Below are positions 6,670-51,422 of a DNA stretch of 57,228 nt, in pieces. How positions within the stretch are numbered: position 1 is the first letter of the stretch; the number at the start of each line of letters is the position of its first letter. This stretch comes from Mediterranea sp. (in: CFB group bacteria) (GTDB lineage Bacteria; Bacteroidota; Bacteroidia; Bacteroidales; Bacteroidaceae). The stretch spans positions 1 through 57,228 of the forward strand of contig JAISIX010000195.1 of assembly GCA_031261805.1 (NCBI GenBank). The letters run 5' to 3'. The notes beneath the pieces were generated by a model that had not been told where the DNA came from, ran no database searches, and was given only the letters and a program-made list of their open reading frames with translations. A program made the position numbers and the translations under genes.

Positions 6670-7599
6670 ATGCCGACGTGGAAAGGACAAACCCGGGGAG
6701 GGACATTCGGATACTTTTTCTTCATCCTGCTGATCAAGTATCTGGGCATTCCCGTGGCCTACTGCTTCCTGCGTCTGGTGGTGCTCTACTTCATCCCCTT
6801 CGCCCCCAAGGCAACCCGCAGCACTTGGCTCTACGCCCGGCATATCCTGAAACGGAGCCGCCGTCGGTCGGTTGCCTTGCTGCTACTCAACTATTACCGG
6901 CTGGGGCAGGTGCTTATCGACAAAGTGGCCATCACGGGCGGACAAGCCGCCCGCTACAAGTTTGAGTTCGAGGCATACCCCGAGTTCCTGCAACTGCTCA
7001 ACGCCGGACAAGGCGCGATTCTGATTGGCGCCCACGTGGGCAATTGGGAGGTCGGCGCCCCCTTCTTCGACGAGTACGGCAAGAAGATACACATCGTGAT
7101 GTACGACGCCGAGCATCGCCGCATCAAAGAGATGCTGGCCAAGAACGGGCAAGGCGGGGCGTACCACGTCATCCCCATCAACGACGACGGTCTCACGCAC
7201 GTGTTCCGCATAGCCGAGGCGCTGGAGCGGAAGGAGTACGTCTGTTTTCAGGGCGACCGTTACCTCCCGGGCGAACGAACGCTGCGCACCCCCTTCTTGG
7301 GGCAGGAGGCACTCTTCCCCGCAGGCCCTTTCCTGGTTGCCACACGCATGAAGGTGCCAGTGGTCTTCTACTTCGCCATGCGCGAGCCGGGGCGCACGTA
7401 CCGGTTCCACTTCATCGTGGCCAAGCCGGTGAGGCGAACGCCCGGTGAGAAGGTGGAAGCCACCCTGCTGAAACAATATACCACCGTGCTGGAGGGCATC
7501 CTGCGGCGTTACCCGGAGCAATGGTTCAATTACTACCCATTTTGGGAGCCGGCTTCCGCCCTGCCTACTGACAACGTAAAAACAGAAAGAAGAAAATGA
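6670..7599 (+). CDS. LpxL/HtrB-like lipid acyltransferase
   Basis: IGAHVGNWEVGAPFF, FQGDRYLPGERT motifs. Confidence 0.85.
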   Translation: MPTWKGQTRGGTFGYFFFILLIKYLGIPVAYCFLRLVVLYFIPFAPKATRSTWLYARHILKRSRRRSVALLLLNYYRLGQVLIDKVAITGGQAARYKFEFEAYPEFLQLLNAGQGAILIGAHVGNWEVGAPFFDEYGKKIHIVMYDAEHRRIKEMLAKNGQGGAYHVIPINDDGLTHVFRIAEALERKEYVCFQGDRYLPGERTLRTPFLGQEALFPAGPFLVATRMKVPVVFYFAMREPGRTYRFHFIVAKPVRRTPGEKVEATLLKQYTTVLEGILRRYPEQWFNYYPFWEPASALPTDNVKTERRK

Positions 7600-8732
7600 A
7601 ACAGCACAGCTATGAGAAAGAGTCCATGACGGCCGCCGCCGCCCAACGGCTGGCACAAGAGATAGCCTTCGGCCCCGTCGTGTTTCAGGTCTCGCGCCTG
7701 ATGCTCAAGTTTGGCATCCTGCAGCTCCTTGCCGACAAGCCCGGCGGTTGCACGCAGGAGGAGATAAGCGCTACGTGCGGCCTGTCGCCCTACGCCGCGC
7801 AAGTGTTACTGGAGTCCTCGCTCACCATTGGCACGGTGCTGCTACGCGACCATCGTTACCTGCTGGCCAAGGCGGGGTGGTTCTTGCTCAACGACCGGAT
7901 GGCACAGGTCAACATGGCCTTCAACCACGACGTGAACTACCAAGGTCTCTTCTATCTCGAAGAGGCTCTGAAGCAAGGTACGCCTGCCGGGCTAAAGGTG
8001 TTCGGCGACTGGAGTACCATCTACGAAGGGCTGTCGAGCCTGCCGGAGCAGGTGCAGAAGAGCTGGTTCGGCTTCGACCATTACTATTCGGACTGTTCGT
8101 TCGACGAGGCACTGCCCATCGTCTTCGCCCACCATCCCCGCACGTTGCTCGACGTGGGCGGCAACACCGGACGTTGGGCCACCCGCTGCGTGCAGTTCGA
8201 CCCCACGGTAGAGGTCACCATCTTGGATCTGCCCCAGCAGTTGGAGCTGATGCGGGAGCAAACAGCCAACGTGCCGGAAGCCTCACGCATACACGGCCAT
8301 GCCGCCAACTTGCTCGATGCCGACACCGCCTTCCCCACCGGCTTCGACGCCCTCTGGATGAGTCAGTTCCTCGATTGCTTCTCCGAGGCCGAGGTGACCA
8401 GCATCCTCACCCGGGCGGCACGCAGCATGGCCAGCCACAGCCGGCTCTACATCATGGAGACCTTTTGGGACAGGCAGAAGTACGACACCGCCGCCTACTG
8501 CCTCACGCAAATCAGTCTCTACTTCACGGCCATGGCCAACGGCAACAGCAAGATGTACCACTCCGACGACATGAAGCGTTGCGTCGAAGCTGCCGGGCTG
8601 AAGATTGAAAAAATAGACGACCACCTGGGCATGGGACACAGCATCTTCACCTGCAGGGTTGAAGAGGGGGCCACTCCAAGGTTAGAAGAGGGGGTCCCTT
8701 CAGGGTTGAAGAGGGAGGCACTTCAAGGTTGA
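7596..8732 (+). CDS. SAM-dependent O-methyltransferase
   Basis: LLDVGGNTGRWATR, TILDLPQQLELMREQ; N-terminal winged-helix-like domain; ATGA overlap with upstream gene. Confidence 0.85.
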   Translation: MKQHSYEKESMTAAAAQRLAQEIAFGPVVFQVSRLMLKFGILQLLADKPGGCTQEEISATCGLSPYAAQVLLESSLTIGTVLLRDHRYLLAKAGWFLLNDRMAQVNMAFNHDVNYQGLFYLEEALKQGTPAGLKVFGDWSTIYEGLSSLPEQVQKSWFGFDHYYSDCSFDEALPIVFAHHPRTLLDVGGNTGRWATRCVQFDPTVEVTILDLPQQLELMREQTANVPEASRIHGHAANLLDADTAFPTGFDALWMSQFLDCFSEAEVTSILTRAARSMASHSRLYIMETFWDRQKYDTAAYCLTQISLYFTAMANGNSKMYHSDDMKRCVEAAGLKIEKIDDHLGMGHSIFTCRVEEGATPRLEEGVPSGLKREALQG

Positions 8733-8812
8733 AGAGGGTGGCACTCCAAGGTTGGAAGAGGGTGGCACTCCAAGGTTGAAGAGGGTGGCACTCCAAGGTT
8801 GGAAGAGGCTCC
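8655..8812 (+). repeat. 23/24-bp minisatellite (about 6.8 copies) overlapping the 3' end of the methyltransferase ORF
   Basis: AAGGTTGAAGAGGGTGGCACTCC and variants at 8655, 8678, 8702, 8725, 8748, 8772, 8795. Confidence 0.9.
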
Positions 8813-25490: not shown

Positions 25491-26060
25491 ATGAAAAAGA
25501 TGATTCTATTCGCACTGCTGTGCGTAGGCCTGTCTTGCTACGGACAAAAGAAAGAGGCTCTTCAAAGCATACACTCCATCAACTTCTACGGAGTGGACTA
25601 CTCACATGCCAAGGTGTTTGGCGCCCGAGAGACAGCACAAGACTTTATCGTTGCCTTTGCCGGTATCAACCAGTTCTTTATCACCGAGGCCAGTAAGTAC
25701 AATGTAGGCAAGCCCCTGAGGAAGCGGGTAGACAATATCTCGCTCGATGCCGTGAACGAGGCAAACAGCCATATCGACCCCTCGCAGCTGATGATTGGCC
25801 AAACCTCCTATACCCTCAGTCCGGACGATGTCCAAAAGGCCGTCAAGGCGCTCGCCATCGACCCGAAGCCCGGCACAGGTTTTATCCTCATCGCCCAGTT
25901 CCTCAATAAGGCCGATAACAAAGGTAGCTACATCGCCGCCTTCTTCGACAACGAGACCAAGGAGATTGTGGAACAATGGACGGTGTACGGCAAAGCCGGC
26001 GGATTCGGCCTTCGCAACTTCTGGGCAGGCTCCGTCCATAGCGCCATCAGGAAGCTCTAA
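25491..26060 (+). CDS. Secreted protein of unknown function (189 aa)
   Basis: Signal peptide MKKMILFALLCVGLSCYG; no recognised domain. Confidence 0.75.
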   Translation: MKKMILFALLCVGLSCYGQKKEALQSIHSINFYGVDYSHAKVFGARETAQDFIVAFAGINQFFITEASKYNVGKPLRKRVDNISLDAVNEANSHIDPSQLMIGQTSYTLSPDDVQKAVKALAIDPKPGTGFILIAQFLNKADNKGSYIAAFFDNETKEIVEQWTVYGKAGGFGLRNFWAGSVHSAIRKL

Positions 26061-26069
26061 CACAGTGTA

Positions 26070-26196
26070 CGGGAGAGTAGCTCTCAATATACGAAAGGAT
26101 TGCCCCCCAATCTACGTGTACATTGACCCCCAAAGTACTCGTGGATTGGGGGCCAATGTACACGTAGGTTGGGGATAGGCTACGGGGTGTTTGGGG
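26070..26196. repeat. 127-bp palindromic module, copy 1
   Basis: CTACGTGTACATTGACCCCCAA...TTGGGGGCCAATGTACACGTAG; matches 46425-46551. Confidence 0.9.
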
Positions 26197-26346: not shown

Positions 26347-26410
26347 TTTTGTATAAAGTGGAATGTAGATAGGTAGGCAGGGATTTCCATCTACTTCCAT
26401 CCCTACGGGA

Positions 26411-26549
26411 GTTTGTACAGCCCCCCAGCACGTTTTTTTTCGTGTTTTACCATCATACCCTCACTGTTTTCGGACAATATACTATAAATGAGCTGATTAC
26501 ACCGTGATGGTAACCGTGAGGGTAACAGTGAGGGTAAAGTTACTCTCAC
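26411..26549. repeat. 139-bp dispersed repeat, copy 1
   Basis: GTTTGTACAGCCCCCCAGCACGTTTTTTTTCGTG... same length as 46277-46415. Confidence 0.9.
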
Positions 26550-26603
26550 TTTTTGGCGAATGAACGATTCTTCCCCCTAAGCACACTTCTTGTCCCATTC
26601 GGT

Positions 26604-26739
26604 GGGACTTTTTTCCCAGCACAATGGGACTTCTTTCCCAGCGCATTGGAACTTCTTTCCCAAGGCGGTGGGACTTTCTTCCCAACACCGTGGGACTTTC
26701 TTCCCAAGGCGTTGGGACTTTTTTCCCAACATGGTGGGA
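26604..26739. repeat. 22-bp tandem repeat, 6 copies plus GGGA
   Basis: GGGACTTTCTTCCCAAGGCGTT-type units every 22 bp. Confidence 0.93.
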
Positions 26740-43233: not shown

Positions 43234-44808
43234 ATGGTACGTAAATTCGATTTCCTCGTTATCGGCTCGGGAATAGCCGGTATGAGCTTTGCGCTAAAAG
43301 TAGCGCACAAGGGAAAAGTAGCACTCATCTGCAAGGCTGGGCTGGAAGAGGCCAATACCTACTTCGCCCAAGGGGGCATCGCCTCCGTCACCAATCTTGC
43401 CGTCGACAACTTCGAGAAACATATAGAGGACACTATGATAGCGGGCGACTACATCAGCGACCGCGCTGCTGTGGAGCAAGTAGTGCGCAACGCGCCCGCG
43501 CAAATCAAGCAACTCATCGACTGGGGCGTGCAGTTCGACAAACGGGAGGACGGGAAGTTTGACCTGCACCGGGAGGGCGGGCACTCGGAGTTCCGCATCC
43601 TCCACCATCAGGACAACACCGGGGCAGAGATACAGGACAGCCTGATAGAGGCGGTGAAGCAGCACCCCAACATCACCGTCTTCCAGGACTTCTACGCCGT
43701 CGAAATCATCACCCAGCACCACCTTGGCATTATCGTCACCCGCTACACGCCGGGTATCAAGTGTTACGGCGCCTACGTGCTCAACGAGCATACGGGCGAG
43801 GTGGACACCTTTCTGGCGAAACTCACCGTAATGGCGACGGGCGGCTGTGAGGCCGTGTACCGCAACACCACCAATCCGCTGGTGGCCACGGGCGACGGCA
43901 TTGCCATGGTCTACCGTGCCAAGGGAGCGGTGAAGGACATGGAGTTCATCCAGTTCCACCCCACGGCACTCTTCCATCCGGGCGACCGCCCCTGTTTCCT
44001 CATCACCGAGGCCATGCGGGGCTACGGCGGTATCCTCCGCACCAAGGACGGCCAGGAGTTCATGCAGAAGTACGATGCCCGCAAGGAGCTGGCACCCCGC
44101 GACGTGGTAGCGCGCGCCATCGACAAGGAACTCAAGCTGCGGGGCGAGGACCATGTTTTCCTCGACGTGACGCACAAGGATCCCGAGCAGACCAAGAAGC
44201 ACTTCCCCAACATCTATAAGCACTGCCTTGGCTTGGGTATCGACATCACCAAGGATTACATCCCTGTGGCGCCCGCCGCCCATTACCTCTGCGGAGGCAT
44301 CGTGGTGGACCTCAACGGGCAGTCGAGCATCCGCCGGCTCTATGCCTTGGGCGAGTGCTCGTGTACCGGCTTGCACGGAGGCAACCGCTTGGCATCCAAC
44401 TCGCTGATTGAGGCAGTGGTCTATGCCGACGCGGCTGCCAAACATGCCTTGAGCGTGCTCGACCGCTACGACTACGAGGAGTCTGTGCCCGAGTGGGACG
44501 ATGAAGGCACCATCTCCAACGAGGAGCGGGTGCTCATCACCCAAAGCATGAAGGAGGTGAACCAAATCATGGAGGCCTACGTAGGTATCGTGCGCAGCAA
44601 CCTGCGTCTCACCCGTGCCTGGAACAGGCTCGACATCATCTACGAGGAGACCGAGAAGCTCTTCAAGAGCAGCAAGGCCACCCGCGAGCTGTGCGAGCTG
44701 CGCAACATGGTGAACGTGGGATACCTCATCACCCGCCAAGCCATGGAGCGCAAGGAGAGCCGAGGCCTGCACTACACCATCGACTACCCCCGTAAGGACA
44801 ACAAATAA
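43234..44808 (+). CDS. nadB: L-aspartate oxidase
   Basis: GSGIAGMSFALK, EANTYFAQGGIASV, HGGNRLASNSLIEAVV. Confidence 0.95.
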   Translation: MVRKFDFLVIGSGIAGMSFALKVAHKGKVALICKAGLEEANTYFAQGGIASVTNLAVDNFEKHIEDTMIAGDYISDRAAVEQVVRNAPAQIKQLIDWGVQFDKREDGKFDLHREGGHSEFRILHHQDNTGAEIQDSLIEAVKQHPNITVFQDFYAVEIITQHHLGIIVTRYTPGIKCYGAYVLNEHTGEVDTFLAKLTVMATGGCEAVYRNTTNPLVATGDGIAMVYRAKGAVKDMEFIQFHPTALFHPGDRPCFLITEAMRGYGGILRTKDGQEFMQKYDARKELAPRDVVARAIDKELKLRGEDHVFLDVTHKDPEQTKKHFPNIYKHCLGLGIDITKDYIPVAPAAHYLCGGIVVDLNGQSSIRRLYALGECSCTGLHGGNRLASNSLIEAVVYADAAAKHALSVLDRYDYEESVPEWDDEGTISNEERVLITQSMKEVNQIMEAYVGIVRSNLRLTRAWNRLDIIYEETEKLFKSSKATRELCELRNMVNVGYLITRQAMERKESRGLHYTIDYPRKDNK

Positions 44809-46276: not shown

Positions 46277-46415
46277 GTTTGCACAGCCCCCCAGCACGTT
46301 TTTTTTCGTGTTTTACCATCATGCTCTCACTGTTTTCAGACAACAGACTGTAAATCAATAGATTATACAGTGATGGCAACCATGAGGGTAACAGTGAGGG
46401 TAAAGTTGCCCTCAC
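46277..46415. repeat. 139-bp dispersed repeat, copy 2
   Basis: Matches 26411-26549 over the full 139 bp. Confidence 0.9.
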
Positions 46416-46424
46416 ACTCTGTCT

Positions 46425-46551
46425 CGGGAGAGTCGCTACCAATACACGGGAGGATTGCCCCCCAAACTACGTGTACATTGACCCCCAAAGTACTCGTAGA
46501 TTGGGGGTCAATGTACACGTAGATTGGAAGCAAGCTACGGGTTGTTTGGGG
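46425..46551. repeat. 127-bp palindromic module, copy 2
   Basis: Perfect 22-bp arms CTACGTGTACATTGACCCCCAA / TTGGGGGTCAATGTACACGTAG. Confidence 0.92.
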
Positions 46552-46577
46552 TACGTCCTTTATCTCCCCTACAGGAG

Positions 46578-46859
46578 GTTTGTGCAACACCCCCTTACGC
46601 ACCTCTACAACCCTGTACTCATCGGGCTTTGCGTGCGCAAGGGGATAATTGGGATGGGAAATATAAGTCTGTGAGGGCGTCTGGCGGTGTTGCAAATCGT
46701 GTGTTGCACGTTTTGCAACAATCGTTTTTGTTTGGTTTTATGTATTCATGAGAGGTGGCTCACTTGCTTGTTTCGGGGAAGTGTCGCTTTTACCCCTTGC
46801 GCACGCAAAGCCCGATGATAATGTGGATGTAGGAGTGCGTAGGGGGGTGTTGCACAAAC
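46578..46859. mobile_element. 282-bp MITE-like element with 67-nt imperfect terminal inverted repeats
   Basis: Left 46578-46644 and right 46793-46859 are reverse complements at about 58/67 positions, no gaps. Confidence 0.6.
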
Positions 46860-46930
46860 TTCAAGTAGAGAAGGGGTAGAACAGGATGGGGGTAACTGTC
46901 TATTAATATTCTATACTACACGCTCTACAT

Positions 46931-47052
46931 TCACGCAGCATGAACAGAAAAAACACGGCCGTGAATGAATCGGTTCACGGCCGTGTTTGTATCAGTTCAT
47001 GGCCGTGATTGAGATGATTCACGGCCATGTTTTTTTAGTTCATGCTGCGTGA
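46931..47052. repeat. CACGGCCGTG palindromic element with 34-bp inverted ends
   Basis: TCACGCAGCATGAACAGAAAAAACACGGCCGTGA ... TCACGGCCATGTTTTTTTAGTTCATGCTGCGTGA. Confidence 0.92.
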
Positions 47053-47103
47053 CTTACTGCGGCTTACTTTGTGTCTTGCAAACATCCTCTGGGGGAGGTT
47101 TGG

Positions 47104-47141
47104 GCGCATGCCCATCGGCCCGTGGGCGGATGGGCATGCGC
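47104..47141. repeat. Perfect 13-bp inverted repeat
   Basis: GCGCATGCCCATC / GATGGGCATGCGC. Confidence 0.9.
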
Positions 47142-47240
47142 TCGTACGCCGATGGGCATGCGCCCATGCGTTGATGCCCTTCGGCGTACCACCAGATTGT
47201 ACCAAACCTTGCGAATATGTTTGCCCAATCTGTCTGGTGA

Positions 47241-50695: not shown

Positions 50696-50713
50696 GTAGT
50701 TAGTGATTAGGGG

Positions 50714-50763
50714 TTAGTGATTAGTGATTAGCTGTGACGGTGATGCTAATCACTAATCACTAA
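50714..50763. repeat. Perfect 18-bp inverted repeat of TTAGTGA units in ispG-purE spacer
   Basis: TTAGTGATTAGTGATTAG / CTAATCACTAATCACTAA. Confidence 0.95.
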
Positions 50764-50780
50764 ACGCTAATCACTGCGTT

Positions 50781-51290: not shown

Positions 51291-51294
51291 GATT

Positions 51295-51422
51295 TAGTGA
51301 TTAGTGATTAGTGGGTAGTGATTAGTGATTAGTGATTAGTGGGTAGTGATTAGTGATTAGTGGGTGGTGATTAATGGCCGTTCCGTTGACCGCTGCTCAC
51401 TAATCACTAATCACTAATCACT
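51295..51422. repeat. TTAGTGA repeat array with perfect 25-bp inverted arms in purE-gcvH spacer
   Basis: AGTGATTAGTGATTAGTGATTAGTG (51317-51341) / reverse complement at 51398-51422. Confidence 0.95.

Follow-up and report, generated by a model that had tools for sequence, protein, structure and literature searches.

The window analysed here, a stretch of 57,228 nucleotides from a draft assembly of Mediterranea sp., raises the question of why two intergenic sites some distance apart carry nearly the same palindrome, and whether this palindrome is kept for its structure or has recently spread. An earlier note on this DNA described two 127-bp copies with 22-bp arms, and both hold up at 26070-26196 and 46425-46551, where 111 of 127 positions (87%) are identical without gaps. 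The arm sequence CTACGTGTACATTGACCCCCAA stands at 26112-26133 in copy 1 and at 46467-46488 in copy 2. As the note had it, the arms of copy 2 pair perfectly and those of copy 1 have one mismatch, where C at 26153 gives A.C on one strand and G.U on the other. We refer to the repeat as element A, and its parts in the window are as follows.

26063..26196, no strand assigned: element A copy 1, six ~23-bp units, delimited by own-genome search and alignment
26112..26133, + strand: copy 1 left 22-bp arm; complementarity reaches 26105-26133
26146..26167, - strand: copy 1 right arm, single mismatch at 26153; extends to 26174
46425..46551, no strand assigned: element A copy 2; the unit farthest out on the low-coordinate side is shortened where module B joins
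46467..46488, + strand: copy 2 left 22-bp arm
46501..46522, - strand: copy 2 right arm, perfect

A chance origin of the palindromes is excluded, since inverted perfect 14-mer pairs no more than 40 bp apart number 34 in the window and 0 in 10 mononucleotide shuffles. The copies also fold far better than shuffles, with z-scores of -5.4 to -8.4 for RNA (both strands) and of -6.1 and -7.5 for DNA.

The palindrome described by the note is real, but 127 bp is not its natural length. Our data demonstrate that element A is a block of ~134 bp made of six contiguous ~23-bp units (about CCCCCAATCTACGTGTACATTGA), of which about two are forward and three to four are inverted, and that the hairpin, with a stem of ~29 bp, is the junction of forward and inverted units. 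The units run CCCCAAACAACCCGTAGCTTGCT, CCCAATCTACGTGTACATTGACC, the junction unit CCCAATCCACGAGTACTTTGGGG and inverted units such as GTCAATGTACACGTAGATTGGGG, and the block ends in ...CTCCCGTACATTGGGG. Aligned in one orientation, near-full copies are mostly ~134-137 bp long with six units. Units have demonstrably been gained and lost: C51 has one extra 23-bp unit and C262 at least one, the middle of the element is missing in C135, and on C216 six 23-bp units, CCCCCAACCAACGGGTCGATTGA, form a related array in direct orientation. One exact loop inversion is present in C103, where the 16-bp loop found most often among the remaining copies, AATCCACGAGTACTTT, stands as its reverse complement, AAAGTACTCGTGGATT, between CCCCC/GGGGG ends that are themselves unaltered. 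The palindrome of element A is a by-product of inverted 23-bp units, a feature that the note had overlooked.

We found that element A is not confined to two sites, since the genome-wide copy count that the note had proposed gives 11 near-full copies and 5 fragments (~16 in total) in its own assembly (3.4 Mb, 268 contigs, 83.5% complete). The copies are intergenic, have differing flanks and are scattered over many contigs; seven of the copies or fragments are no more than ~1.2 kb from where their contig stops, and because the draft genome is fragmented in this way the count is a minimum. At an E-value of 0.001, element A had no match in the 60 relatives sampled, in 59 genomes sampled from the rest of the phylum, or in 392 other Bacteroidales, where the first pass scored few candidates per genome so that weak relatives could be missed. 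The exact arm sequence was not found in viral contigs. The suggestion of recent spread is thus supported by many copies here and none in sampled relatives. Element A is a species-restricted palindromic minisatellite repeat, similar in build to the BrickBuilt elements discussed below. In the same window, a carboxyltransferase-like gene at 43234-44808 has its best match, 93% identical, in a Mediterranea MAG, and by this gene the organism is judged to be related to the Bacteroidaceae.

The second suggestion of the note, that the structure is selected, finds no support in our alignment of nine six-unit copies. Of 29 arm pairs 20 are invariant, and in the variable ones 90.8% of cells are paired, compared to 90.7% with partners shuffled (245 of 500 shuffles were as high). 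The covariation score of the arms was equalled in 217 of 500 shuffles, a comparison of low power given nine copies with little variation, and RNAalifold reported a two-sided change in one of 32 pairs. Compensatory changes in the stem beyond those in shuffles were thus not found among these nine copies of low variation, and an Rfam scan of the window gave no match. The note would have abandoned its reading for a module unique to two sites with no pairing conservation; the element has many more copies than two in its genome, yet its arms show no conservation of pairing other than that which follows from identical sequence. A positive covariation signal would itself stay ambiguous, since template switching in palindromic repeats could create paired changes. 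Our data indicate that a palindrome can come from flipped minisatellite units with no sign of structural selection, and element A calls for caution when hairpins within repeats are interpreted.

We found an excess of element A in convergent gaps. Among the nine copies that have genes on both sides, six lie in a convergent gap, two in a tandem gap and one in a 2-kb nominally divergent gap, while convergent gaps make up 18 of 166 gaps and about one quarter of gap length in a sample partly picked around A copies. Genes were called with a simple codon-based gene finder, and genome-wide statistics come from samples, namely ~303 kb chosen partly around A copies and 231 kb of contigs 6-25. The window has only two convergent gaps and each holds one copy. 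Copy 1 lies between a 189-aa gene upstream and a YqeY gene downstream, and begins 2 bp past the stop codon of the former (25491-26060, + strand). Copy 2 has on one side a 94-aa frame that follows a Na/Ca exchanger gene, and on the other an AAA-ATPase/PDDEXK gene. The A-bearing gaps are mosaics of several dispersed repeats, including module B, a composite of 615-630 bp and others, which in the window are placed as follows.

26410..26554, + strand: module B, a dispersed repeat with inner 12-bp ACCGTGAGGGTA repeats; shares the convergent gap of A copy 1
26585..26739, + strand: 22-bp tandem array of terminator-like hairpin units followed by T runs, in the convergent gap of A copy 1
46277..46426, + strand: module B, directly abutting A copy 2
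46564..47190, + strand: composite dispersed repeat of ~615-630 bp, adjoining A copy 2 and holding 22-bp tandem arrays

Module B occurs in about 36 places in the genome. The composite has near-full copies on other contigs (83-90%) that occur without element A, and it contains internal inverted arms of ~80 bp (46564-46644 / 46793-46873). In the array at 26585-26739, TCCCAACACCGTGGGA is followed by CTTTCTT/CTTTTTT, which yields five terminator-like sites in a row on the + strand, and related arrays are present on several other contigs. A 15-bp stem with a T run on the - strand is found at 46988-46951. A symmetric AAAAAACACGGCCGTG...CACGGCCATGTTTTTTT block with 22-bp repeats at 46931-47052 resembles a two-way terminator between convergent genes. 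Elsewhere in the window there are tandem arrays of different units, one of 23 bp at 8657-8808, which overlaps the predicted gene 7596-8732 at its 3' end, and one of 22 bp at 2656-2737. Heptamer arrays, with TTAGTGA facing TCACTAA-type arrays, occupy 50700-50775 and 51294-51422; they recall, without being identical to them, the TAACTGA heptamers known from Beggiatoaceae, Cyanobacteria and some Bacteroidetes (PMC4679880).

Placement of this kind, with six of the nine classifiable copies in convergent gaps and copy 1 so close to a stop codon, could mean that element A is a functional two-way RNA 3'-end element. Transcripts from either of the convergent genes would contain its ~29-bp hairpin, which would slow RNA polymerase or block 3'-5' exonucleases and would be kept by selection. 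The hairpin is strong on both strands, and the adjacent 22-bp array is composed of terminator-like hairpins with T runs, as such a role might lead one to expect. We nevertheless consider it unlikely. No T run follows the hairpin of element A, and the GC stem and T run of an intrinsic terminator were found only in the neighbouring arrays, element A being absent from the terminator-like sites detected. Covariation in the arms does not exceed that of shuffles, and the copies in the large nominally divergent gap and in the two tandem gaps also argue against a 3'-end function.

We think it probable, with moderate confidence, that element A is a non-coding, dispersed, palindromic minisatellite cassette, changed in its units by slippage and template switching, spread with mosaic repeats and tolerated in convergent gaps. 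We infer the mutational mechanism, the mode of dispersal and the effect on transcript ends as follows. A 23-bp unit would have been amplified head to tail and partly inverted, resulting in a six-unit block of ~134 bp with a foldable inverted junction. Judging from the end products, units may then have been gained, lost and flipped via replication slippage and hairpin template switching. The cassette may have travelled alongside larger mosaic intergenic repeats or as part of them, moving as a non-autonomous (MITE-like) element or through recombination between repeats. It may persist because gaps between convergent genes tolerate it, and its role in the host would be at most weak, that of a two-way 3'-end hairpin.

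A narrower account of dispersal is that element A is a strict MITE, moved in trans by a transposase that recognises its ends. Copies are dispersed with differing flanks and carry short CCCCAA/TTGGGG ends, AAGGT-like bases stand on both sides of the element in C85, C110 (left AAGGC) and C132, and one flanking repeat was found without element A at C33 (L267). The C33 site and the AAGGT pattern fit a history in which element A inserted into an older repeat and the two then spread together, and a deletion at C33 could also account for that site; the AAGGT duplication, being confined to copies whose flanks are mostly related, may record one event. The terminal inverted repeats, however, are short and imperfect, several copies end differently, and a long common terminal inverted repeat (TIR) is missing. 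Among matches to element A we found no linked transposase, and no autonomous partner that shares its ends and carries a transposase. Allowing up to 2 mismatches, we did not find the IS5-type TIR of BrickBuilt, GAGACCTTTGCA, within 500 bp of the 11 copies. A strict MITE is thus a possible but rather doubtful reading, and we retain the minisatellite cassette as the better description.

A wider result, which we had not expected, concerns intergenic tandem repeats in general. In intergenic DNA analyzed with Tandem Repeats Finder, arrays with a period of 21-23 are the main class, comprising 23 of 42 arrays in its own genome (0.51 per intergenic kb, some arrays being copies of one family), 12 of 20 in same-genus samples (0.14 per intergenic kb) and 34 of 57 in 80 Bacteroidales loci (0.22 per intergenic kb), loci from around a single gene in related species, which are not entirely independent. 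Their density is 0.05 per intergenic kb in other orders of the class and phylum and 0.02 in E. coli, in non-Bacteroidales samples of 180-220 kb each. A lag test independent of Tandem Repeats Finder counts, for each lag, the gaps in which six or more 7-mers recur at that distance. In the three Bacteroidales sets the count peaks sharply at 22, with harmonics at 44 and 66, the signal being weakest in the same-genus set; the other Bacteroidota orders sampled gave no more than scattered gaps, and E. coli showed no 22-bp period. A minor class of 41 bp accompanies the 22-bp period (Bacteroidales loci L030-L109 and L153-L209). The units of the 22-bp arrays are mostly unrelated in sequence and rich in dyads, with stems of at least 6 in 22-33% of units compared to 2-4% of shuffled units. 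Terminators were rejected as a general cause, since 11 of 69 arrays have a terminator-like site against 3.3 expected, so that terminator arrays explain only a minority. Strict 3'-end placement was rejected as well; 28 of 35 arrays in tandem gaps occupy the half on the side of the upstream gene, yet divergent gaps hold some.

Regular spacing could also mean that element A itself is an array of protein-binding sites (iterons), with CAAT/ATTG and GTAC blocks every two helical turns bound by a nucleoid or regulatory protein. Its ~23-bp spacing, the dyad symmetry within each unit and the recurrence of the same blocks in forward and inverted units would agree with this, but the element lies mostly away from promoters, the unit tally used a pattern that forces most of the conserved bases, and element A is species-restricted, yet many unrelated unit sequences have the spacing. 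We regard iterons as improbable. As a tentative proposal that stops short of being probable, Bacteroidales as an order may have a process or constraint, independent of sequence, that gives rise to intergenic tandem arrays of dyad-symmetric 22-bp units (21-23, with 44 and 66 and a minor 41), of which element A would be a folded-back, dispersed product. A fixed period with unrelated sequences, if true, would suggest the footprint of an enzyme or protein over two helical turns, and not selection on one sequence. Taken alone, element A is one more species-restricted intergenic repeat; the 22-bp period, should whole genomes confirm it, would amount to a mutational or architectural signature of the order, one for which we found no explanation and which is directly testable.

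Among known systems, the REP/BIME elements and RAYT-linked REPs (PMC3733652) resemble element A as extragenic palindromes of alternating orientation, often downstream of genes and in mosaics, and the arms of several A copies end in GTAG. Mobilisation by a RAYT (Y1 transposase) is nevertheless very improbable and already largely refuted. Element A has no linked Y1 transposase, its 29-bp stem is built of 23-bp units, and its copy number is far under that of typical REPs. The genome has a single Y1_Tnp (IS200/RAYT-type) frame (L276, G000:C203:8015-8359), which is interrupted by one in-frame TGA, and neither element A nor the neighbouring modules are in that locus. MITEs with TIRs and target duplications (described in PMC4596501) are likewise short, non-coding, dispersed and intergenic, whereas element A has no consistent TIR or demonstrated target duplication and has an internal minisatellite build.

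In kind, element A comes closest to BrickBuilt of Porphyromonas gingivalis, a minisatellite/MITE of 23-nt units without spacers that is present in 19 copies (PMC4596501). Element A works alike, a likeness of build that need not mean homology. Both consist of contiguous ~23-bp units without spacers (as does the direct array in C216) in variable number, both are intergenic with ~10-20 copies (19 compared to 11 near-full copies and 5 fragments), and both have predicted long stem-loops and occur in one or few species of the same order, Bacteroidales. They differ in that element A has no leader or tail bearing IS5-like GAGACCTTTGCA ends, promoter activity is not demonstrated for it, and its units are partly inverted into a palindrome of about six units. 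For an order-wide 22-bp period, the literature covered, which leaves most subscription journals outside, yielded only Porphyromonas papers. Tandem repeats of 22, 23 and 41 nt have been reported from P. gingivalis W83 without their positions (cited in PMC4596501), and they agree with the Bacteroidales-wide period: the preferred periods are the same, in one species there and here in many, with mostly unrelated units.
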